Source: Candidatus Kerfeldbacteria bacterium CG08_land_8_20_14_0_20_40_16
GTDB lineage: Bacteria; Patescibacteriota; Patescibacteriia; UM-FILTER-42-10
DNA length: 46,784 bases
Assembly (NCBI GenBank): GCA_002774635.1
Contig: PEXU01000056.1
Coordinates: 1-46,784 of the forward strand
Reading direction: 5' to 3'
The notes beneath the pieces are model-generated. The model was not told the DNA's origin. It did no database searches and worked only from the letters and a program-made list of their open reading frames with translations. A program made the translations under genes and the position numbers. Positions 82 to 44,801 of the stretch are shown in pieces (within the stretch, counting starts at the first letter, position 1; every line of letters begins with the position of its first letter).

Positions 82-230
82 GGGCGCCGTTAGTCCCGAT
101 GCCCCTAAGTAAATTCGGGGATCGGGATCCCGACTTCCCCGCAAGGAGAACGTCGGGACTCAGCCAGGTAGACCTGCCCCCGCCCGATTGCTTCGCATTC
201 GAAGCGGGCGGGCGTTTTGCCTTGCGGTTT
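82..230 (+). pseudogene. tRNA 5' fragment interrupted by two palindromic elements (copy A)
   Basis: Pieces that read as the 5' part of a tRNA close to the intact tRNA-Lys at 679 (acceptor-like strand and TAG at 82-93, D-loop at 159-172) are separated by GC-rich palindromic insertions. Removing 94-158 rejoins TAG to CTCAGCC, restoring the D-arm between nt 10 and 11. The second insert starts after TAGA (nt 23) near 173 and runs to about 213. The similarity fades after about 225 and there is no 3' half, so this cannot make a normal tRNA. Confidence 0.6.
94..158. repeat. Tandem double-hairpin element (family 1, copy 1)
   Basis: The element is two consecutive hairpins built from the same stem, TCCCGA...TCGGGA then TCCCGA...TCGGGA, so the centre is the palindrome TCGGGATCCCGA (122-133). 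It sits between nt 10 and 11 of a tRNA-like D-stem. A related element occupies the same site in another tRNA fragment at 6178-6238. Confidence 0.65.
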
Positions 231-256
231 TAAAAGTTAATTTAAATAAAATACTC

Positions 257-348
257 GGGCGCATAGCTCCCGTCCGCCATCGGCTCGCCGAAGGCGTGCC
301 GGGCGGGCAGCCAGGTAGATCCGCCAGCTGGCGGACTCTTAAGCAAAC
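257..348 (+). pseudogene. tRNA-Lys 5' half interrupted by two palindromes (copy B)
   Basis: The acceptor strand and GCATAGCT (257-268) match intact tRNA-Lys at 679. A hairpin insert follows at 269-307 between D-stem nt 12 and 13. The D-loop CAGCCAGGTAGA resumes at 308-319, then comes the 16-bp palindrome TCCGCCAGCTGGCGGA (320-335). CTCTTAAGCAAAC (336-348), the Lys anticodon loop and 3' stem strand, follows and the copy then stops. The ATG of the GIY-YIG gene is 3 nt further on. No T-arm or 3' acceptor strand follows, so it is a broken gene or a leader RNA, not a functional tRNA. Confidence 0.7.
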
Positions 349-351
349 ATA

Positions 352-606
352 ATGTTTAGTGTTTACGTAGTATACAATAGAATTTATAATAAAATTTACA
401 TTGGGTATACTTCGGATTTAGAAGCGAGATTAAAACGCCATAATGGCATATTAAAAAATAAAAAGAAGTCTTTTACTAGCAAAAATAAAGGTAAATGGGA
501 ACTGATTTATAGTGAACAATCATCCACAAGAAAAGACGCTATAAAAAGAGAAAAAGAATTAAAAAGTTATAGAGGAAGAGAGTTTATTAAAAGCAAGATA
601 AAGTAA
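352..606 (+). CDS. Small GIY-YIG nuclease-domain protein
   Basis: This 84-residue protein is essentially a lone GIY-YIG (URI-type) domain. The N-terminal VYVVY and YIGYT supply the two signature tyrosine segments about 10 residues apart, LEARLKRHN supplies the expected Arg helix, and the REKELK segment supplies the candidate metal-binding Glu. Family members of this length are common in CPR genomes, and the related UvrC and homing-endonuclease domains cut DNA. Its target here is unknown. It has no Shine-Dalgarno sequence; a truncated tRNA-Lys 5' half ends 3 nt upstream and the intact tRNA-Lys lies 72 nt downstream. The same arrangement recurs at 26595, suggesting a tRNA-linked selfish or DNA-processing role (inference). 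Confidence 0.85.
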   Translation: MFSVYVVYNRIYNKIYIGYTSDLEARLKRHNGILKNKKKSFTSKNKGKWELIYSEQSSTRKDAIKREKELKSYRGREFIKSKIK

Positions 607-615
607 CCGACATTA

Positions 616-642
616 GCCCCCATAGCTCAATTAGTAGATCCG
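616..642 (+). pseudogene. Short tRNA 5' fragment (copy C)
   Basis: GCCCCCATAGCTCAATTAG and the following TAGA read as an acceptor strand plus D-arm of a tRNA. The similarity stops after TAGA, where the sequence changes to TCCGCCCC, the same junction used by copies A and B. It lies between the GIY-YIG gene and the intact tRNA-Lys. Confidence 0.5.
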
Positions 643-678
643 CCCCTTTTACTCTTTACAAATTTACATATTTTTATC

Positions 679-755
679 GGGCGCATAGCTCAGCCAGGTA
701 GAGCAGTTGCCTCTTAAGCAAACGGTCGGGGGTTCGATTCCCTCTGCGCCCACCA
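679..755 (+). tRNA. tRNA-Lys (anticodon CUU)
   Basis: A complete cloverleaf can be drawn. Acceptor GGGCGCA pairs with TGCGCCC, the D-stem is GCTC/GAGC, the anticodon loop CTCTTAA gives CTT, the variable loop has 5 nt, the T-stem GGGGG/CCCTC encloses TTCGATT, and CCA is encoded. The anticodon stem has a mismatch at its outer pair. It is the only full copy among four partial copies within 900 bp. Confidence 0.93.
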
Positions 756-834
756 ATAAATTATGTTAAATTCCGAAATATCAAAGCAAGGCAGGCCCGT
801 CCATCCCGCATCTATGGGATGATCGGGCAGGCGG

Positions 835-909
835 GGCAGTTGCCTCTTAAGCGTACGGTCGGGGGTTCAAATCCCTGCCTGCCGGCAGGCAGGCCTCACG
901 GCGCACCAT
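835..909 (+). pseudogene. tRNA-Lys 3' fragment interrupted by a palindrome (copy D)
   Basis: Anticodon arm and T-arm (GCAGTTGCCTCTTAAGC onward, 835-875) closely match tRNA-Lys. The sequence then enters a perfect 20-bp palindrome (874-893) and resumes as a GCGCACCA 3' end near 901-908. The upstream flank 781-834 is also palindromic and has no 5' half. With copies A-C upstream, the order is 5' fragments, GIY-YIG, intact tRNA, 3' fragment. Confidence 0.65.
874..893. repeat. Perfect 20-bp GC-rich palindrome
   Basis: CCTGCCTGCC is followed directly by its reverse complement, in the T-arm/acceptor region of tRNA fragment D. A similar CCCGCCTGCC-type element lies within the RNA unit at 34691-34725. 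Confidence 0.7.
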
Positions 910-1143
910 AGTAAAGTATCCTGAAAAAAACAGGATATTTTTTGTTACCGACTTTTAGTATCAGGGGAAGGGATTCGAACGGGCAGAAGTAAAGAAGCAG
1001 TTATATTGATTTTAGCTTGCTTTTTCCTTCAGATTATTGTAAGTTACCTTAAGAAAATTGTTCCTAAAAAACCGATATAATAAAGCCAGTGCAAAATAGA
1101 AGCAAGAGATAGAATCATTATTTCTGAAAAAAGGAGAAAGCAC

Positions 1144-1992
1144 ATGAACAACCGAAATTTCCGAAAACTGTTGGAGAATCAATGGTCTCGCGGTAACTTC
1201 GTCTGCGTTGGACTCGACAGCAGGTTGGATAATATTCCAAAGTCCATGCTCCAAAGTGGCAGTGAAAGCAATGTCAGTATCGCTAACACCATCGTCGCGT
1301 TCAACCGAGCAATCGTGGAAGCAACCAAGAACCTTGTGTGTGCCTACAAGCCGAATAGCGCGTTCTATGAAGCGTATGGTGCTGAGGGGCTTGCTGCTTT
1401 ACACCGAACTATCGTTGATATCCACATTCTAGCGCCGGATGTTCCGGTGATCCTCGACGCCAAGCGGGCAGACATTGGCAACACCAATGCGGGCTATGTG
1501 GAAGCAGCATTTGACTTTCTACAAGCAGACGCAATCACAGTTAATCCCTATCTGGGAGCTGAAGCACTTCTGCCATTTCTGGCACGAGCAGAGAAAGGCA
1601 TCATTGTGCTCTGCCGTACTTCCAATCCAGGTGCGGGCGAGTTTCAGGATTTGTCAGTGAACGACGAGCCGCTCTATCTTTTCGTGGCGCGTCGCGTCGC
1701 CAGTGAGTGGAATAAGAACGGCAACTGCGCGCTCGTCGTCGGCGCCACCTATCCTGATGAACTTCGGGAGGTACGCGAAATTGTCGGCGACATGCCAATT
1801 CTCATTCCTGGAATCGGCGCCCAAGGCGGCGATGTAGAGAAGACTGTCTCCGTAGCTAAGAACAGCCGCGGACAGGGCATGATTATCAATAGTTCGCGCG
1901 CCATCATTTTTGCCTCGAAAGACGCAGACTTCGCCGAAGCGGCTCGCCGCGAAACAGAGAAGCTCCGCGACGCAATCAACCAGTACCGATAG
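1144..1992 (+). CDS. pyrF: Orotidine 5'-phosphate decarboxylase
   Basis: PyrF decarboxylates OMP to UMP, the last step of de novo pyrimidine synthesis, in the cytoplasm. The 282-residue protein carries the catalytic Lys-Asp signature DAKRADIGNT at 105-114, an N-terminal CVGLDSRLDNIP strand, and a C-terminal IPGIGAQGGDVEKTV phosphate-binding segment. Length and motif fit the longer (group 2) PyrF subfamily. AAGGAG lies about 8 nt before the ATG and a TATAAT lies at 1076-1081. pyrE follows 15 nt after the stop, so the pair is probably one transcript. No other de novo pyrimidine gene is in the window, so the pair may convert scavenged orotate (inference). Confidence 0.95.
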   Translation: MNNRNFRKLLENQWSRGNFVCVGLDSRLDNIPKSMLQSGSESNVSIANTIVAFNRAIVEATKNLVCAYKPNSAFYEAYGAEGLAALHRTIVDIHILAPDVPVILDAKRADIGNTNAGYVEAAFDFLQADAITVNPYLGAEALLPFLARAEKGIIVLCRTSNPGAGEFQDLSVNDEPLYLFVARRVASEWNKNGNCALVVGATYPDELREVREIVGDMPILIPGIGAQGGDVEKTVSVAKNSRGQGMIINSSRAIIFASKDADFAEAARRETEKLRDAINQYR

Positions 1993-2007
1993 GAAGTAGG
2001 TAAAATT

Positions 2008-2745
2008 ATGAACATACTAGAAATGACAGAACGAGAGCTTTTAACACTTGGAGTTGAAGATGTTAGCCGTTCTTTAACTCCTGAAGAGGTCGTACATATA
2101 GCCAAAACTCGCGGAGCATTCTGGGTCTACAACTACGAAGCGGCCAAACAAGGGAATGTTGGAATGCACGCCAGCTTGAAGTCTGGTCTTCACAGCGACG
2201 GCTTTTTCATCTCCCGAATCCTGCTGGCATCAGAAAACATCAGACGAATCATTTCCAGCCAAATGGTTATGAGGATTAAGGAAGCTCTCTGTGAGAATGA
2301 CATGCCCAGTGGCGTTGTGGGCGTCCCAGACGGGGCCACTAAGATTGGCGAGGATATTGGCAAAATGTTCGGGATAAATGTCCTTAAGATGGGAAAGATC
2401 GAGGGTCAAATTGTTTCCTCGTCGCCAGTGGATCCCCAGGAGCGGATTTTAGTGGTTGAGGATTTCTGTACACGGGGAACTGGTTTCACCGAAGCGGTAC
2501 GAGCAATCAAAGCAGCCCAACCTAAAGCACAATTCATACCTTACGACCCAGTAATTATCAATCGCGGAGGGCTGAAAATCATTTTTGTGGAAGGAACCGG
2601 TGAATTTAAAATCTGCCCTGTTGTTGAATGGAGAGTCCAAGATTGGGATCCAGAGAAATGTCCTCTCTGTAAAATGGGTTCTGTTGCCATCAAACCAAAG
2701 GCGACAGACGAAAACTGGAAAGCAATCACCACTTCTCAATTGTAA
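2008..2745 (+). CDS. pyrE: Orotate phosphoribosyltransferase-like protein
   Basis: This should join orotate to PRPP, giving OMP for the PyrF next door. The 245-residue protein has the PRPP-binding loop VVEDFCTRGTG at 149-159 and the OPRT-type HASLKSGLHSDGFF segment at 54-67. A C-terminal CPLCKMG pair of cysteines (218, 221) is not part of the core enzyme and may bind metal. It follows pyrF by 15 nt with a modest AGGAAG ribosome site. A terminator hairpin starts 27 nt after the stop. The PRTase fold is certain; orotate as substrate rests on the motif and the pyrF partner. Confidence 0.88.
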   Translation: MNILEMTERELLTLGVEDVSRSLTPEEVVHIAKTRGAFWVYNYEAAKQGNVGMHASLKSGLHSDGFFISRILLASENIRRIISSQMVMRIKEALCENDMPSGVVGVPDGATKIGEDIGKMFGINVLKMGKIEGQIVSSSPVDPQERILVVEDFCTRGTGFTEAVRAIKAAQPKAQFIPYDPVIINRGGLKIIFVEGTGEFKICPVVEWRVQDWDPEKCPLCKMGSVAIKPKATDENWKAITTSQL

Positions 2746-2771
2746 GCTAAATATCGAACAACCAAAGGGTA

Positions 2772-2807
2772 AAGCGGCACCCATCAACAAAACAAAGCCG
2801 CTTTTTT
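2772..2807 (+). terminator. Intrinsic terminator after pyrFE
   Basis: AAGCGGC (2772-2778) pairs with GCCGCTT (2797-2803), followed by a T run. It closes the pyrF-pyrE unit. Confidence 0.85.
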
Positions 2808-2917
2808 CTTTTCTAAAAAGAATCTATCGCTAAAGCAGTAAATTTTCAAAAAAAACAAAAAATCCATCAAAATCCAGTAAATAAAACACCGATCAAAACC
2901 GGTTTTTTGTTTATTTA

Positions 2918-2946
2918 TTGACAGCGGTTCCTAATTCCAGTAAGGT
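2918..2946 (+). promoter_or_regulatory. Promoter of the MTA/purine phosphorylase gene
   Basis: TTGACA (2918-2923), a 17-nt spacer and a poor -10 TAAGGT (2941-2946). It is the only recognisable promoter between the pyrE terminator and the next gene. Confidence 0.5.
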
Positions 2947-3027
2947 AGAGTAACGCTCTTTTACAAATAACTGAGTACAAAAACTTTAAATCATAAACTG
3001 CTGCACAATTTTTAGGAGGACCCGAGC

Positions 3028-3873
3028 ATGTCTTTTCCCATAGCTCTTATTACCGGTACAGGGATGGATGAACTATTTTCTCCCAAAACCGAGGAAAAAA
3101 CTGGGCTACCTGTCTTTAAAACTGAATTAAAACACGTTGCTAGAACTACTCATGGAGGTCCGGTACGCGCCCAAATTGTCCGAGGTGATGGTCTAGAATT
3201 TCTGTGGCTTGACCGGCACAATTCATCAAAACGGTACTGCTGTCCCCATGAAATCAATTCTGCTGCTTACATGAAGATGCTGTACGACAACGGCGTACAA
3301 TTCATCTTCGCTACCTCCGCAGTGGGCGGCATTAACAGGGCTGGATTTGACCGTTTAGAAGTCGGCTCTTTAGTTATTCCCGAAGACTTTATTGATCTTA
3401 CTAAAGGGTCATATACTTTTAACAATCCAGCTCATACTCATCCTTTAGCCTTCTATCGTCCCCCGGCAGGTCTCTTTTGCCCTGAAATGGCAAAGCTATT
3501 TCCAGAAGCTGATATCCAAAAGGGTGGAATTTACACCAGTGTGCCGGGACCCCGCTACGAAACACGGGCGGAAATTGCAATGATAAAAAACTTTCATCCG
3601 GAGGCACGGCTGTTAGGAATGACCATTCCTCCTGAAGCATCACTGGCTCGAGAGATAGCGGTTCATTATTGTCCGATTTGCATTGTGGCTGATCTGCCCC
3701 TCGAGGAAGGCTCTGTTAATGGGAGTTCCGTTGAAGATGTTGTCCGCCAGGCTAAGAAAGCGGTTCTTACTGCTATCCTCTCGGTAATGCATAAAGTGCC
3801 AGAAGTCAGCGCTGGCTGGCAATGCGACTGCGGCAAGATGGATCCGGTATTTAAAATTTTACAATCCGCCTAA
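3028..3873 (+). CDS. S-methyl-5'-thioadenosine / purine nucleoside phosphorylase family protein
   Basis: The family cleaves MTA or purine nucleosides with phosphate, for purine and methionine salvage. In this 281-residue protein GTG (10-12) forms the first phosphate loop, and RHN (63-65) with PHEIN (73-77) matches the RHG...PH.IN signature. ATSAVGGIN, GPRYETRAE (174-182) and GMTIPPEASLARE (197-209) are the purine and Met/Glu sugar-binding segments. AGGAGG precedes the ATG by 9 nt, and the gene has its own promoter and terminator. MTAP is favoured over PNP by overall pattern, but substrate cannot be fixed by eye. The Cys-rich C-terminus (CDCGK) is unusual. Confidence 0.88.
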   Translation: MSFPIALITGTGMDELFSPKTEEKTGLPVFKTELKHVARTTHGGPVRAQIVRGDGLEFLWLDRHNSSKRYCCPHEINSAAYMKMLYDNGVQFIFATSAVGGINRAGFDRLEVGSLVIPEDFIDLTKGSYTFNNPAHTHPLAFYRPPAGLFCPEMAKLFPEADIQKGGIYTSVPGPRYETRAEIAMIKNFHPEARLLGMTIPPEASLAREIAVHYCPICIVADLPLEEGSVNGSSVEDVVRQAKKAVLTAILSVMHKVPEVSAGWQCDCGKMDPVFKILQSA

Positions 3874-3897
3874 CCAAGCGGTTTAGGGGATTATTAT

Positions 3898-3928
3898 GGC
3901 TCGTTCCGAGATGGACGAGCCTTTTTTT
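3898..3928 (+). terminator. Intrinsic terminator after the phosphorylase gene
   Basis: GGCTCGT/ACGAGCC hairpin followed by seven T residues. Confidence 0.9.
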
Positions 3929-3951
3929 AATAAATGTTTTACAATACAAAT

Positions 3952-4878
3952 ATGAAAAAAGAAACGATAACCATAGAACCAAAAGATAAAGGAAAGCGTT
4001 TAGATAAGCTCTTAGCAAAAAAATTTCCCAATTATTCCCGTTCGCACTTCCAAAAATTAATCAAAGAAGCAAAAGTATCGGTTAACGCCCAGAAAATAGC
4101 CGCCCATACTCTCCTTAAAGAAAATGATAAAGTAACTATTGAACCAGTTGAACCAATAAAGATATCCCTAAATCCTGATTCCTCTATCAAATTGGATATT
4201 GTGTTTGAAGACCAAGACTTTCTAATAATTAATAAACCGGCGGGAATGGTGGTACACCCTTCCCAGAGCAATCCCGAGCATACTTTAGTAAATGGTATTC
4301 TTGTCCACAATCCTTCCATCGCCTTAGTTGGCGATAACGCTCTTAGGCCCGGAATTGTCCACCGGTTAGATAAAGAAGTCTCTGGATTGATTGCTGTAGC
4401 AAAAAACCAACTTTCATTTTTACATCTAAAAGAGCAGTTTTTAAAAAGAACAATCAATAAAAAATATCTGGCGCTGGTATATGGAAAACTAAACCAAGCG
4501 GAGGGTAAAATAGATTTGAGTATTGGGCGTTCCAAAAGAAAGCCGTTTCGCATGTCGGTGAAACAAAAAGGAGAAGGGAAGTCCGCTCTCACTTATTACC
4601 GTGTTCTCAAGGAATATAGATATTATTCTTTATTAGAGATTAAAACTAAAACCGGCCGGACTCATCAAATTCGAGTGCATCTTTTCTCCTTTGGTCATCC
4701 GATTGTCGGAGATAAAATATATCAGATAAAAAGTATAAAACCGGCTAAAGATCTTGATCGAATTTTTCTTCATGCTAGCTTTCTTCAATTTACGGGAATA
4801 CAGGGAGAAATAAAAAGGTTTCAGGTTGACTTGTCCAGTGAATTAAAAAATTATCTTATAAAATTAAAAGGCTGTTGA
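3952..4878 (+). CDS. rluD: RluA/RluD-family 23S rRNA pseudouridine synthase
   Basis: The enzyme isomerises specific uridines in large-subunit rRNA. An S4 RNA-binding domain (KGKRLDKLLAKKFP, about residues 13-55) is followed by the catalytic domain with HRLDKEVSG, whose Asp is the nucleophile, and the RTHQIRVHL motif near residue 225. The start at 3952 (MKKETITIEP, 308 aa) is chosen over an in-frame ATG at 3934 because the latter only adds a non-conserved MFYNTN. There is no Shine-Dalgarno sequence. The stop codon TGA lies inside the -35 box of the rplS promoter. RluD rather than RluA or RluC is a guess from the S4 domain. Confidence 0.92.
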   Translation: MKKETITIEPKDKGKRLDKLLAKKFPNYSRSHFQKLIKEAKVSVNAQKIAAHTLLKENDKVTIEPVEPIKISLNPDSSIKLDIVFEDQDFLIINKPAGMVVHPSQSNPEHTLVNGILVHNPSIALVGDNALRPGIVHRLDKEVSGLIAVAKNQLSFLHLKEQFLKRTINKKYLALVYGKLNQAEGKIDLSIGRSKRKPFRMSVKQKGEGKSALTYYRVLKEYRYYSLLEIKTKTGRTHQIRVHLFSFGHPIVGDKIYQIKSIKPAKDLDRIFLHASFLQFTGIQGEIKRFQVDLSSELKNYLIKLKGC

Positions 4879-4902
4879 CTTAATCAATATTTTTGGTATA
4901 CT
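4875..4902 (+). promoter_or_regulatory. rplS promoter overlapping the rluD stop
   Basis: TTGACT (4875-4880), 16-nt spacer, TATACT (4897-4902). The TGA stop of rluD (4876-4878) is part of the -35 hexamer. Confidence 0.8.
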
Positions 4903-4931
4903 GCTATACACTAAGCAATTAAAATATCTAA

Positions 4932-5279
4932 ATGACAGAAGAGAAATCAAAAAAAAAGAATAAAGATATAATAGAAAATATTCCTGACTTAAAACCAGGA
5001 AATGTTGTTCAGGTCTATCAAAAAATCGCTCAAGGTGACAAATTTAGAATTCAAATGTTCGAAGGAGTGGTAATCGCTAAAAAGGGAAAAACAGAGAACG
5101 ATCGAACAATTACCGTCAGAAAAGTATCAGAAGGCGGATACGGAGTAGAAAGAATATTCCCTTTGGCTTCTCCTTTGATTTCCAAAATAACGGTTTTGAA
5201 AAAACCTAAGGTCCGTCGGGCAAAACTTTACTATCTTCGTCATTCACCTCGAGAACTTAAAGAGCTAAAAGAAAAATAA
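4932..5279 (+). CDS. rplS: 50S ribosomal protein L19
   Basis: bL19 sits at the 30S-50S interface. The 115-residue sequence has the family's [11 protein letters not shown] strand, the EGVVIAKKG segment, the [18 protein letters not shown] core and the conserved C-terminus [11 protein letters not shown]. Length is normal. A 29-nt leader separates the TATACT box from the ATG, with no Shine-Dalgarno sequence. tRNA-Leu begins 16 nt downstream, so the tRNA may be co-transcribed. Confidence 0.97.
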
Positions 5280-5295
5280 GCTTGGGCGATAAAAT

Positions 5296-5383
5296 GCCGC
5301 GGTGGCGGAATTTGGTATACGCGCTACCTTGAGGTGGTAGTGGGGGTAACTCCTTGGAGGTTCAAGTCCTCTCCGCGGCACCA
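5296..5383 (+). tRNA. tRNA-Leu (anticodon GAG)
   Basis: Class II tRNA with a long variable arm. GCCGCGG pairs with CCGCGGC, the anticodon stem CTACC/GGTAG encloses TTGAGGT (GAG), the T-arm has TTCAAGT, and CCA is encoded. Its last 19 nt (5363-5381) are repeated exactly at 5536-5554. Confidence 0.93.
5363..5381 (+). repeat. tRNA-Leu 3'-end repeat, upstream copy
   Basis: CAAGTCCTCTCCGCGGCAC is the T-loop and 3' acceptor part of tRNA-Leu. It recurs exactly 173 bp downstream. Confidence 0.85.
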
Positions 5384-5535
5384 AAACTTTTTTAACCAGG
5401 CGAGTGATTATTAGTAAGCTCGGGCAAGTTAAAGCCAAAGACTTGAAGAGCAGAAGCGAGCAAGTCTCGCGAAGCGGGACTTAAGAGAGCGTCGACGAAT
5501 GCGAGCTGGCGCAGCATTCGGCGCTGCCCGGGACA
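5384..5535. other. Gene-free spacer between two tRNA-Leu 3' ends
   Basis: No convincing gene is visible. The segment holds GC-rich hairpins, for example AAGTCTCGC/GCGGGACTT at 5462-5482 and GAATGC/GCATTC near 5498-5520. It is bounded by the two identical 19-bp tRNA-Leu 3' ends, so it looks like the remnant of an insert. Confidence 0.5.
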
Positions 5536-5554
5536 CAAGTCCTCTCCGCGGCAC
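5536..5554 (+). repeat. tRNA-Leu 3'-end repeat, downstream copy
   Basis: Identical 19-bp copy of 5363-5381 with no tRNA body in front. It is followed within 10 nt by a tRNA-Val-like fragment. Confidence 0.85.
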
Positions 5555-5559
5555 TTAAG

Positions 5560-5674
5560 GGGTGCGTAGCTTCCGCCTTCGTCCCGCAGGCGCGGGACCT
5601 CGGCGGACAGGCAGTTGGTTAGACCCGCCCGACTGCCTTGACGGCAGTCAAAGCGGGCAGGGCGCATGGTTTAT
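5560..5674 (+). pseudogene. tRNA-Val-like 5' half interrupted by two hairpin elements
   Basis: GGGTGCGTAGCT (5560-5571) resembles the start of tRNA-Val at 5720. A nested hairpin (TCCGCC...GGCGGA enclosing GTCCCG/CGGGAC, 5572-5607) is inserted between D-stem nt 12 and 13. The D-loop continues with GTTGGTTAGA, then a second nested hairpin (CCCGC...GCGGG enclosing GACTGCC/GGCAGTC, from 5624) is inserted between nt 23 and 24. GCGCATGGTTTA (to about 5674) resumes up to the anticodon loop, where the copy ends. Confidence 0.68.
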
Positions 5675-5719
5675 ACCTGCCCGCCGCGGCCGTAAAAATC
5701 TTTTAAAAATATTTCAACT

Positions 5720-5796
5720 GGGTTTGTAGCTCAACTGGTTAGAGCGCATGGTTTACATCCATGAGGTTAGGGGTTCAAGTCCTCTCAAACCCACCA
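5720..5796 (+). tRNA. tRNA-Val (anticodon UAC)
   Basis: GGGTTTG pairs with CAAACCC, the D-stem is GCTC/GAGC, CATGG/CCATG encloses TTTACAT (TAC), the T-arm has TTCAAGT, and CCA is encoded. An interrupted 5' half of the same type lies just upstream. Confidence 0.94.
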
Positions 5797-5918
5797 GACA
5801 GTAAATTTACAGTTAAAAGATTGAGAGCTGCTTTGGCAGACGGATCTAAAAGGTCATCCCGCGCACCACTAGTTTAGCCCTCCCTTTCTGACGGGTTTAA
5901 GTCAACTAATAACAAAGC

Positions 5919-6164
5919 ATGGGAGTAATTATCTTAGGAATAATTGGAATTGTCATCGGCGCTGTTTTTGTCATAAAAACAGAGTGGTTTTTGGATTTCT
6001 TTGGTCGAATTGAATGGGCCGAGCGACATTTGGGTACCGAGGGGGGAAGCCGTCTTTTTTACAAAATAATCGGAATTGGGACAATTGTTTTAAGCTTTAT
6101 GTTGATGACCGGACTGTTCCAGTTGCTTTTAAGAAAAATATTCTCGTCAGGGAGGATTAATTAA
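5919..6164 (+). CDS. Small two-helix membrane protein
   Basis: The 81-residue protein starts with a hydrophobic helix (about 2-20), has a polar loop containing RIEWAERHLG, and a second helix (about 48-71) before a basic tail. Two-helix proteins of this kind are frequent in CPR genomes and usually unassigned. No Shine-Dalgarno sequence is visible. It lies between tRNA genes and may be transcribed with them. Function is unknown. Confidence 0.6.
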   Translation: MGVIILGIIGIVIGAVFVIKTEWFLDFFGRIEWAERHLGTEGGSRLFYKIIGIGTIVLSFMLMTGLFQLLLRKIFSSGRIN

Positions 6165-6167
6165 TAA

Positions 6168-6264
6168 GGGCCCTTAGTCCCGATGTCCCTCTGAGGCGGG
6201 AATCGGGATCCCGATTTCGCCTATGGCGAATATCGAGACTAAGTTGGTTAGAACACCACATTTG
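6168..6264 (+). pseudogene. tRNA 5' fragment interrupted by a double-hairpin element
   Basis: GGGCCCTTAG (6168-6177) reads as an acceptor strand with position 8-10 nucleotides. After the insert at 6178-6238, CTAAGTTGGTTAGAACACC resumes as a D-arm and continues to CACATTTG, where an anticodon loop would be. The remainder of the tRNA is absent. Its acceptor strand differs from the tRNA-Ala that follows, so it comes from another tRNA, perhaps Ile- or Thr-type (uncertain). Confidence 0.6.
6178..6238. repeat. Tandem double-hairpin element (family 1, copy 2)
   Basis: Two successive hairpins share the TCCCGAT/ATCGGGA stem, with TCGGGATCCCGA at the centre. The right end has decayed to ATATCGAGA. It is inserted between nt 10 and 11 of a tRNA D-arm, exactly as in copy 1 at 94-158. 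Confidence 0.65.
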
Positions 6265-6323
6265 TCCCGACTTACAATAATATATAGAATTAAAGAAGTG
6301 GAGGATTCTCGAAAATTTATAAA

Positions 6324-6399
6324 GGGCCGATAGCTCAGCTGGTAGAGCATCCGGTTTGCATCCGGAAGGTCTGGGGTTCGAATCCCCATCGGTCCACCA
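6324..6399 (+). tRNA. tRNA-Ala (anticodon UGC)
   Basis: GGGCCGA pairs with TCGGTCC, TCCGG/CCGGA encloses TTTGCAT (TGC), the T-arm has TTCGAAT, and CCA is encoded. A short hairpin with a T run follows. Confidence 0.95.
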
Positions 6400-20191: not shown

Positions 20192-20238
20192 CCCGGGAAG
20201 TTTAAAGTTAAAAGAGTAAAGTTTCAGCCGGAGGCTGA

Positions 20239-20253
20239 TCCGCCTTTGGCGGA
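20239..20253. repeat. TCCGCC-type palindrome
   Basis: TCCGCCTTTGGCGGA, a 6-bp stem with a 3-nt loop, in the gap between two operon genes. Other members are at 320, 26547, 28654 and 39754. Confidence 0.6.
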
Positions 20254-26512: not shown

Positions 26513-26583
26513 GGCCCTATCGTCTAGTGGTTAGGACATCAGGTTTTTCCGCCTACGGCGGACCCACCGCAGGCGGGCATCCT
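26513..26583 (+). pseudogene. tRNA-Glu 5' half with a palindrome in the anticodon loop
   Basis: GGCCCTATCGTCTAGTGG and the following bases to CATCAGG (26513-26543) read as acceptor strand, D-arm and 5' anticodon stem of a tRNA-Glu. The acceptor strand differs from the intact tRNA-Glu at 26852, so it was a different copy. After TTTT a palindromic element (TCCGCCTACGGCGGA plus CCCACCGCAGGCGGG, about 26547-26577) is inserted, then CATCCT resumes (3' part of loop and stem) and the copy stops. A GIY-YIG ATG follows 11 nt later. Confidence 0.68.
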
Positions 26584-26594
26584 TTCATACACAT

Positions 26595-26873
26595 ATGTAT
26601 TTCGTATATGTCTCAAAAAGCAAAAGAGATAATTCATTGTATATTGGGCAAACTTCGGATTTGCAGAAAAGAGTCAAGGAACACAACCAAGGCAAAACAA
26701 AATCCCTAAAACACAAGACTCCTTTATATCTGATATACTACGAAGTATATAAAAACAAAAAAGATGCAACGAGAAGGGAATGGAATTTTAAACATAAAGG
26801 TCAAGAGCGAGAAATACTAAAAAAACAAATACATAATTCAATCAACAACCCGCCGCCTTCGTCTAGTGGTTAG
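26595..26873 (+). CDS. Small GIY-YIG nuclease-domain protein overlapping tRNA-Glu
   Basis: The 92-residue single-domain protein has MYFVYV and LYIGQT as the two signature segments, DLQKRVKEHN carrying the Arg helix, LYLIYYEVY, and RREWNFKHK with the candidate catalytic Glu. It resembles the protein at 352 in order and length. No Shine-Dalgarno sequence is visible. The C-terminal NNPPPSSSG is encoded by the first 20 nt of tRNA-Glu, and the stop TAG lies in the tRNA D-arm, so CDS and tRNA overlap by 22 bp. It is preceded by a broken tRNA-Glu 5' half. Confidence 0.84.
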   Translation: MYFVYVSKSKRDNSLYIGQTSDLQKRVKEHNQGKTKSLKHKTPLYLIYYEVYKNKKDATRREWNFKHKGQEREILKKQIHNSINNPPPSSSG

Positions 26874-26926
26874 GACATCAGGTTTTCATCCTGGCAACAG
26901 GGGTTCGATTCCCCTAGGCGGTGCCA
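26852..26926 (+). tRNA. tRNA-Glu (anticodon UUC)
   Basis: GCCGCCT pairs with AGGCGGT (one terminal G-U), the D-arm contains TAGTGGTTAGGAC, the anticodon loop TTTTCAT gives TTC, the T-stem GGGG/CCCC encloses TTCGATT, discriminator G, and CCA is encoded. Its last 15 nt recur at 28177-28191. Confidence 0.94.
26912..26926 (+). repeat. tRNA-Glu 3'-end repeat, left copy
   Basis: CCCTAGGCGGTGCCA, the 3' acceptor end with CCA of tRNA-Glu. It matches 28177-28191 exactly, at a distance of 1265 bp. Confidence 0.85.
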
Positions 26927-39617: not shown

Positions 39618-39938
39618 ACCCTGGGGCAAGCGTTCGACCGAGGCCTCACGCCGTCCCACAAAAGCGGGATTGAATGGAAGCGAGACAAGTCTTAAAGGTA
39701 TTATACCTTGTATTTCTCCGCCACATTATTTATAAGATTTAAAGGAAGGCGGATCCGCCTCGGGCGGAGACTGCGTCCTGCTTTCGCCGAAGCGAAGCTC
39801 CGGCTTCGCGCAGGCAGGTCGGTCGATATGAAAACTGTTGTTTTTATTCGCTCCTCACTTGTCGAAATAAAGTAACTAAGCAAAAGGCAACTGAAATTCA
39901 GAGCTGATCGGAATAACAATTTACCAATTACCAATCCT
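39618..39938. other. Gene-free region with GC-rich palindromes
   Basis: No convincing gene is seen. TCCGCCTCGGGCGGA (39754-39768) and a GAAGCGAAGCTCCGGCTTCG-type hairpin (about 39792-39812) interrupt otherwise AT-rich sequence. A 15-codon frame at 39828 (MKTVVFIRSS...) is too short to support. It resembles the broken-tRNA regions but no tRNA piece is clear. Confidence 0.45.
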
Positions 39939-44762: not shown

Positions 44763-44801
44763 TTCCGACGTAAAGTCGGAATTCCGACCGAAGTGTCGGA
44801 A
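44763..44801. repeat. Tandem double-hairpin element in the clpP leader (family 2)
   Basis: TTCCGAC-gtaaa-GTCGGAA is followed directly by TTCCGAC-cgaagt-GTCGGAA. The architecture equals the TCCCGA elements at 94 and 6178 with a different stem. It would be in the 5' untranslated RNA of clpP. Confidence 0.75.

Follow-up and report, generated by a model that had tools for sequence, protein, structure and literature searches.

Small GIY-YIG nuclease genes beside split tRNA genes and hairpin-bearing tRNA relics in Kerfeldbacteria: a putative homing cassette

Why should the 5′ parts of tRNA genes be broken, at exact points, by GC-rich hairpins? The question is raised by a stretch of 46,784 nucleotides (the window; PEXU01000056.1, contig C7 of assembly GCA_002774635.1) from Candidatus Kerfeldbacteria bacterium CG08_land_8_20_14_0_20_40_16, whose 1.13-Mb genome (G000) is 96% complete in 62 contigs. 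A preliminary description of the window reported three or four tRNA 5′ fragments with GC-rich self-complementary inserts and treated them as independent partial tRNA genes. The inserts were borne out, and relic scores and exact junctions exceed shuffle controls. The fragments, however, are displaced remains (relics) of duplicated tRNA genes that have an intact counterpart of the same kind next to them, and often adjoin genes of small GIY-YIG nucleases. We suggest that a GIY-YIG homing cassette splits and replaces tRNA genes and that hairpin elements strike the relics later, a course of events that we regard as probable, if well short of assured.

The tRNA-Lys array at the start of the window displays the arrangement (Table 1). 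Its relic 1 comprises a complete tRNA-Lys interrupted three times by inserts. In order it consists of 84–93, a two-hairpin element of the family that we call F1 (94–158), 159–172, an insert of 663 bp (173–835), 836–873, a palindrome (874–893) and 894–908. The corresponding fragment had been placed at 82–230; the tRNA proper begins at 84, and its acceptor stem of 7 bp is perfect, with GCGCCGT pairing with ACGGCGC at 898–904. Deletion of 94–158 joins GCGCCGTTAG to CTCAGCCAGGTAGA exactly between nucleotides (nt) 10 and 11 of the tRNA, and the fully joined relic is called as tRNA-Lys(ctt) by ARAGORN. Relic 2, a GIY-YIG gene and the functional tRNA-Lys all lie within the 663-bp insert, after which the tRNA sequence of relic 1 picks up at 836. 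An intact tRNA of the same or closely similar kind likewise lies on the same strand downstream of every 5′ fragment: tRNA-Lys (679–755), tRNA-Val (5720–5796) and tRNA-Ala (6324–6399). In addition to what had been described, the window contains 3′ halves (836–908, 5536–5554), a tRNA-Glu relic (26513–26547) and both of its GIY-YIG genes.

The junctions are precise in most cases. The preliminary description held that removal of the first insert restores the tRNA exactly in all four fragments, and that a second insert follows TAGA in two or three of them. The former is true of 94–158, of 269–307 in relic 2 (39 bp, nt 12/13, by a strict test) and of 6178–6238 in the Ala relic (nt 10/11), but the Val relic rejoins as GTAGCT-CAGTTGG only if its insert is 5572–5611 (40 bp) and not 5572–5607. 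As to the latter, the Val relic has a precise second insert (5624–5661, with TAGA before and GCGCATGG after it), whereas that of relic 1 is the 663-bp unit rather than a simple hairpin and that of relic 2 (TCCGCCAGCTGGCGGA, 320–335) is imprecise and stands in place of GCAGTTGC. The Ala relic (6168–6264) has no second insert.

Relics are widespread in the genome and beyond it. Each of the 34 intact tRNAs of the genome was aligned to its own 1.3-kb flanks, with long insertions permitted and intact tRNAs masked, and for 17 of them the relic score exceeded the maximum of 204 dinucleotide-shuffled flanks. Among relatives picked without reference to F1, relics occur at 18 of 75 tRNAs, and the arrangement, in which a relic often precedes a GIY-YIG gene at the intact tRNA, is seen across the class and in other phyla. 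With the inserts deleted in silico and the pieces joined, ARAGORN calls complete tRNAs from window relic 1 (Lys-CTT) and from the Leu-CAG, Ile-GAT and Phe-GAA relics; the joined Arg-CCG relic, too decayed or interrupted, gives no call. The same nesting, with an intact gene enclosed by the pieces of a split tRNA of equal specificity, is also found, on reading the sequences, for Leu-CAG, Arg-CCG and Ile-GAT, and by alignment for Ile-TAT and Phe in genome G002.

Such nesting might be produced by transposon-like capture. Here a composite element with CCCGCC..GGCGGG inverted repeats would carry a whole tRNA gene into the D-arm or anticodon of a resident of the same kind, with the GIY-YIG gene as a passenger. 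Intact tRNAs do lie between such arms in split relics (Leu-CAG, Arg-CCG, Ile; Ile-TAT and Phe in G002), and similar arms flank tRNA-Arg in both G000 and G028, which belong to different families. Nevertheless, the arms are uniform neither in sequence nor in length, a transposase linked to them was not found, and homology-based repair is the more natural explanation for insertion into a tRNA of like kind. Capture also leaves the proximity and strand bias of the GIY-YIG genes unexplained, and we consider it unlikely.

In the genome, five of the six small full-domain GIY-YIG genes are near tRNA genes, one of the five (on contig C12) being about 300 bp away and belonging to a subfamily not linked to tRNAs. 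In relatives, an intact tRNA lies within 130 bp at 11 of 25 fetched loci, against some 2–3% expected from a rough estimate of tRNA density. All 33 GIY-YIG open reading frames (ORFs) within 250 bp of a tRNA are on its strand and 15 overlap it; this count covers all fetched loci and is not a random sample, because it includes loci first obtained through F1. The ORF has about 80 codons, its end abuts or overlaps the intact tRNA and a relic is often found just upstream. Relic, ORF (ATG..stop) and intact tRNA usually follow one another in this order. tRNA-linked and unlinked proteins stand apart in a tree with few resolved forks (8 changes against 16.2 expected, 0 of 500 shuffles). The catalytic residues Y5, Y16, G18, R26, H30, E67 and K71 are invariant in 18 proteins, and one close pair has a nonsynonymous divergence (dN) of 0.07 with saturated synonymous divergence (dS). 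tRNA-linked GIY-YIG genes are present in Omnitrophota and WOR-1 as well, with single cases in Bacteroidales and Planctomycetota. A full correspondence between protein clade and tRNA identity was rejected, since the tracking is partial (25 changes against 31.2 in shuffled data, with few columns and many open forks).

The nuclease layer resembles a free-standing homing endonuclease in two defining features; the decisive one, cutting of the empty allele and copying into it, is predicted. The protein has the GIY-YIG domain (PF01541) with intact catalytic residues, and its gene adjoins the putative target, of which gene-free alleles exist (tRNA-Ala of G001 and others).

The tRNA-Ala locus allows the relic to be compared with its empty site. 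The gene order around a conserved ORF of 81 codons is L19 – tRNA-Leu – tRNA-Val – ORF – tRNA-Ala. In G001, of the same genus, a functional tRNA-Ala follows the ORF directly (..ATTAATTAACAA|GGGCTGTTAGC..) and there is no relic. In the window the same position (..ATTAATTAATAA|GGGCCCTTAG..) is taken by the F1-bearing relic, with the intact tRNA 60 bp beyond it. The Ala relic thus occupies the ancestral position, because the functional tRNA-Ala of G001 stands exactly there. Sequence reading finds no Ala relic in G004, G017, G022, G027, G036, G045 and G055 either, and G028 has the relic without a hairpin. The comparison of orthologous loci that the preliminary description had proposed therefore yields empty sites of both kinds, relic-free and hairpin-free. 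The inserts of the Ala relic differ among G000, G035, G025, G002 and G042, the last three genomes having other hairpins at nt 11–13. G035 contains two successive Ala relics with a GIY-YIG gene after the second and is, with G028, a source of relics without hairpins. Its cassette is flanked by a perfect direct repeat of 56 bp, comprising the leader and tRNA nt 1–36, and we read it as the product of a recent event.

As the Ala relic is retained across families and a relic usually stands directly before the GIY-YIG start codon, the hairpin-bearing fragments could also have a function as RNA, whether as tRNAs that are split or contain introns or as leaders that regulate the nuclease gene or the downstream tRNA. 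The only tRNA-Phe found in the genome, which has a T-loop hairpin, points in the same direction. On the other hand, the other relics studied have intact copies of the same tRNA, relic anticodon stems contain mismatches and the inserts differ in every lineage, which makes a function of this sort very improbable in our opinion. The tRNA-Phe in question (G000 C6:50110-50220; L004 17111-17221) carries a GC-rich T-loop hairpin of 35 nt, and is a callable tRNA-Phe without it. It is either a relic whose partner was missed in the assembly or a working tRNA that carries an uncommon insert; with the genome 96% complete and divided among 62 contigs, a second tRNA-Phe could have been lost between them. 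It is a possible exception to the order in which the relic comes first and the hairpin second.

The hairpins have properties of their own. Inserts of the window fold well as single-stranded DNA (z −3.1 to −4.3). A strict count of exact junctions gave 16, at nt 9–13 (4), 17–24 (6), 35/36 (5) and 43–45 (1), against 0 in 5 shuffles of the queries; these numbers are approximate, because a few junctions combine pieces from different relics. F1 follows the plan TCCCGA-hairpin-TCGGGATCCCGA-hairpin-TCGGGA, with nearly invariant ends and a second hairpin that mirrors the first, one unpaired base included. The hairpins covary: in 17 copies 98.5% of cells are paired, and there are 45 double changes where shuffles give 12.6 (0 of 500). 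Every F1 copy found in this genome is in a tRNA piece, with TAG before it and CT or TT after it. A wider GTDB scan shows that, among the matches listed, F1 is dispersed in several phyla, including Omnitrophota and Nomurabacteria, and that tRNA-borne copies outside this genome sit at TAG^CT, AAG^CT or TTC^GA. A restriction of F1 to tRNAs everywhere was consequently rejected, given its dispersal in these two groups and others. In Nomurabacteria (L107, L110, L130, L146, L153) F1-like elements apparently lie within protein-coding genes, and the length of some is a multiple of three; in WOR-1/Margulisbacteria (L118, L143, L152, L181) they are in the T-loop of tRNA sequence (TTC^GA or TTC^AA).

That different hairpins occupy the same tRNA positions, as the preliminary description had it, was seen repeatedly and in unrelated families. 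Its further proposal, targeting of the D-arm hairpin, is not supported in the sense of a sole or a structural target. D-arm structure as the sole target was rejected, because similar inserts are found at nt 35/36 of the anticodon (Glu, three families), downstream of the anticodon in Arg and in the T-loop. As for structure, the main family sits at TAG^CT, AAG^CT or TTC^GA, and a short sequence motif accounts for the sites equally well. The two-hairpin plan recurs with different sequence in other inserts, for example at Glu nt 35/36 in G010 and G006. When 349 kb of this genome were scanned for the two-hairpin plan, 28 doublets were obtained against 1–10 in shuffles. Of those outside tRNA pieces, most are AT-rich matches due to chance, but three in the window (starting at 20224, 39717 and 44763) are GC-rich. 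These elements (20224–20253, 39717–39768 and 44763–44801) are two-hairpin structures not in tRNA relics, and the last is at AAG^CTA, which resembles the tRNA target motif.

Neutral decay would need neither nuclease nor preference: ordinary tandem duplication of tRNA genes, spare copies turning into pseudogenes and dispersed palindromes landing in them by chance. It is in accordance with the dispersal of F1 in other phyla and with the TCCGCC..GGCGGA inserts, which are found at 21 places of this genome (3 in the reversed control), mostly outside relics. We judge it quite improbable, since the junctions cluster at three sites, F1 in this genome is found only in tRNA relics, and neither nested whole tRNAs nor GIY-YIG linkage would be expected.

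A mobiliser of F1 was sought among the Y1 transposases. The RAYT of this genome is unsupported in this role, as the repeats on either side of the Y1 gene on C14 differ from F1 in sequence. That gene (L028, about 4173–4598), lying between GTAG-type repeats (GTAGGTGGCGAGTTTACTCGCC), apparently belongs to an ordinary RAYT/REP pair. Y1 genes are present in 9 of 10 genomes with F1 and in 37 of 67 others (P 0.035; rank test P 0.0004). The association may be incidental, and that of copy numbers may reflect overall mobile-element load.

Taken with what is known of the phage enzyme SegB, the anatomy of the units leads us to the following sequence, in which small free-standing GIY-YIG genes would act as homing cassettes for tRNA genes; cutting and replacement by the nuclease are the most likely origin of the relics. 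In the first step the nuclease would cut a tRNA gene, most likely at nt 35–37 of the anticodon arm, with a second breakpoint after nt 20–24. In the second step repair would put the GIY-YIG gene together with a replacement 5′ part, or a whole tRNA, into the cut. The host would retain a working tRNA, and the old 5′ piece, plus the 3′ piece if the whole tRNA is replaced, would stay as flanking relics. Successive rounds would result in nested relics such as those of the window tRNA-Lys. The GIY-YIG gene would often come to lie between the relic and the new tRNA, its 5′ leader containing the relic, and may be co-transcribed from the tRNA promoter. In the third step the functionless relics would take up short palindromic elements. 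The chief of these, the two-hairpin, REPIN-like F1, would enter without target duplication at short motifs of the tRNA arms: TAG^CT (nt 10/11), AAG^CT and TTC^GA. Candidate reasons for these points are a short target motif, exposure of the arms as single strands, or selection. Inserts may be favoured because they break the direct repeat that relic and new tRNA form, which would stop the recombination that deletes the cassette. The hairpins are probably secondary to relic formation, because hairpin-free relics exist and no clearly functional tRNA with a hairpin was seen.

Several observations weigh against this sequence of steps. A regenerated intact tRNA should restore the cut site, and self-protection is therefore unexplained. 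The Val units have the reversed order, intact tRNA – GIY-YIG – relic, which requires the second breakpoint; in them the TAG stop codon of the ORF is tRNA nt 8–10, followed by F1 and then by the remaining tRNA. Many relics have no GIY-YIG gene nearby, and a single nuclease mechanism for all relics is for this reason an extrapolation. The Ala relic has been kept across families for longer than might be expected of a neutral fragment. Finally, no F1 flanks the Y1 transposase genes of this genome.

The proposed cassette can be compared with known systems. Integrative elements that attach at tRNA genes have a tyrosine integrase gene, and it is normally the 3′ part of the tRNA that they restore, leaving a displaced fragment. 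Insertion into a tRNA gene, restoration of a functional tRNA and a displaced fragment are common to both, but the window units usually supply the 5′ part or the whole tRNA. The units at 173–835 and 26548–26851 each have one ORF of at least 80 codons, the GIY-YIG gene; integrase-like ORFs occur near L044, L046 and L061. A group I intron is absent, as an Rfam scan of the window at gathering thresholds gives tRNAs only, and a complete second tRNA is present instead. Palindromic elements within genes are also known from Rickettsia; the F1 relatives that apparently lie in coding sequence of Nomurabacteria are similar, whereas sequence, host phyla and the focus on tRNA relics are different here.

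Among nucleases, SegB is a free-standing GIY-YIG homing endonuclease of T-even phages that is encoded beside tRNA genes. It is reported to cut within them and to drive the amplification of tRNA and segB through recombination in the 5′ region of the tRNA (PMC13096335). The GIY-YIG gene beside tRNA genes and the duplicated tRNA are shared, while cutting in our case is predicted. However, SegB belongs to phages and to tandem amplification, and here we find bacterial chromosomes, a minimal domain of about 80 residues, a resident tRNA split and replaced, and relics bearing hairpins. The nearest report from the same bacteria concerns rRNA genes of the Candidate Phyla Radiation, another case of structural RNA genes invaded, though the insertions are mostly introns with LAGLIDADG enzymes that are removed from the transcript; some encode GIY-YIG proteins, for which no sign of homing was seen, and tRNA is unmentioned (PMC11270868).

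REPINs and GTAG-tagged REPs are moved by RAYTs (PMC3116915, PMC3733652). F1 is like a REPIN in being an inverted doublet of REP hairpins of 40–75 bp with compensatory changes and TAG at its foot, in a genome with Y1 transposases. It has no GTAG tag at both outer ends: its TAG is one-sided and belongs to the tRNA, and the other side reads TGAG or TGAA. In this genome it does not flank the Y1 genes and is confined to tRNA relics; across genomes, Y1 genes are commoner where F1 is present. Double-hairpin elements of Allomyces mitochondria, as cited in a later paper, are tandem hairpins without target-site duplication and are thought to be mobile (PMC2800124). As far as they are characterised there, they look like F1 but come from fungal mitochondria. 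We know of no nuclease or tRNA-replacement layer associated with them.

Our literature search found no account of relic, GIY-YIG gene and hairpin in this arrangement, many subscription papers being outside its coverage. We tentatively put forward, with rather more doubt than confidence, that the whole represents an undescribed class: a minimal GIY-YIG cassette that splits essential tRNA genes at fixed sites and brings a substitute tRNA with it, which would make its loss costly, plus dependent hairpins at fixed points of the discarded pieces, in several bacterial phyla.

Two other observations were made in passing. Beside the tRNA-Lys relic array, positions 1144–3870 of the window carry genes for orotidine-phosphate decarboxylase and a phosphorylase-family protein with an ORF of 245 codons between them, possibly acquired. 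At two loci (L012 230–430, L013 5840–6140) an intact tRNA-Pro is enclosed by inverted repeats that extend its acceptor stem (e.g. TTCTCACATCTGGTC..GACCAGATGTGAGAA).

Table 1. Features of the tRNA units in the window
Feature	Position	Strand	Remarks
Relic 1 (tRNA-Lys-CTT), nt 1–10, GCGCCGTTAG	84..93	+	acceptor pairing; ARAGORN call of joined relic
F1 two-hairpin element, 65 bp, nt 10/11 of relic 1	94..158	not assigned	
Relic 1 D-arm, CTCAGCCAGGTAGA	159..172	+	
663-bp insert in relic 1 after TAGA	173..835	not assigned	GC-rich ends CCTGCC..GGCAGGCGGG
Relic 2 (tRNA-Lys 5′ part)	257..348	+	inserts 269–307 and 320–335
GIY-YIG nuclease ORF, 84 aa	352..606	+	Pfam PF01541, E 6e-15; catalytic residues conserved
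tRNA-Phe-like 5′ fragment	616..638	+	ends at TAGA, then TCCGCCCC
Intact tRNA-Lys(CTT)	679..755	+	
Relic 1 3′ part	836..908	+	split by perfect 20-bp palindrome 874–893
Intact tRNA-Leu(GAG)	5296..5383	+	
3′ relic of tRNA-Leu(GAG), nt 68–86	5536..5554	+	
Relic of tRNA-Val 5′ part	5560..5673	+	inserts 5572–5611 (nt 12/13) and 5624–5661 (after TAGA)
Intact tRNA-Val(TAC)	5720..5796	+	
Conserved 81-aa ORF, synteny anchor	5919..6164	+	homologs in 49/57 genomes
Relic of tRNA-Ala 5′ half (nt 1–35)	6168..6264	+	F1 insert 6178–6238
Spacer, perhaps 3′ remnant of a dead GIY-YIG gene	6265..6323	+	frame reads RIKEVEDSRKFIK; G035 still has GIY-YIG gene here
Intact tRNA-Ala(TGC)	6324..6399	+	
Relic of tRNA-Glu, nt 1–35	26513..26547	+	
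Palindromic insert at nt 35/36 of Glu relic	26548..26577	not assigned	tRNA resumes as CATCCT 26578–26583
GIY-YIG nuclease ORF	26595..26873	+	3′ end overlaps intact tRNA-Glu
Intact tRNA-Glu(TTC)	26852..26926	+	

If the proposed mechanism is true, it would show, in a concrete form open to test, how a selfish gene can persist within the most conserved genes of a reduced genome without killing its host. It would account for many of the small GIY-YIG proteins and tRNA pseudogenes of Patescibacteria and related uncultured phyla, where tRNA annotation includes relics and should be used with caution. It also offers a series of insertions with their empty sites, and palindromic elements with an unusually narrow choice of target.

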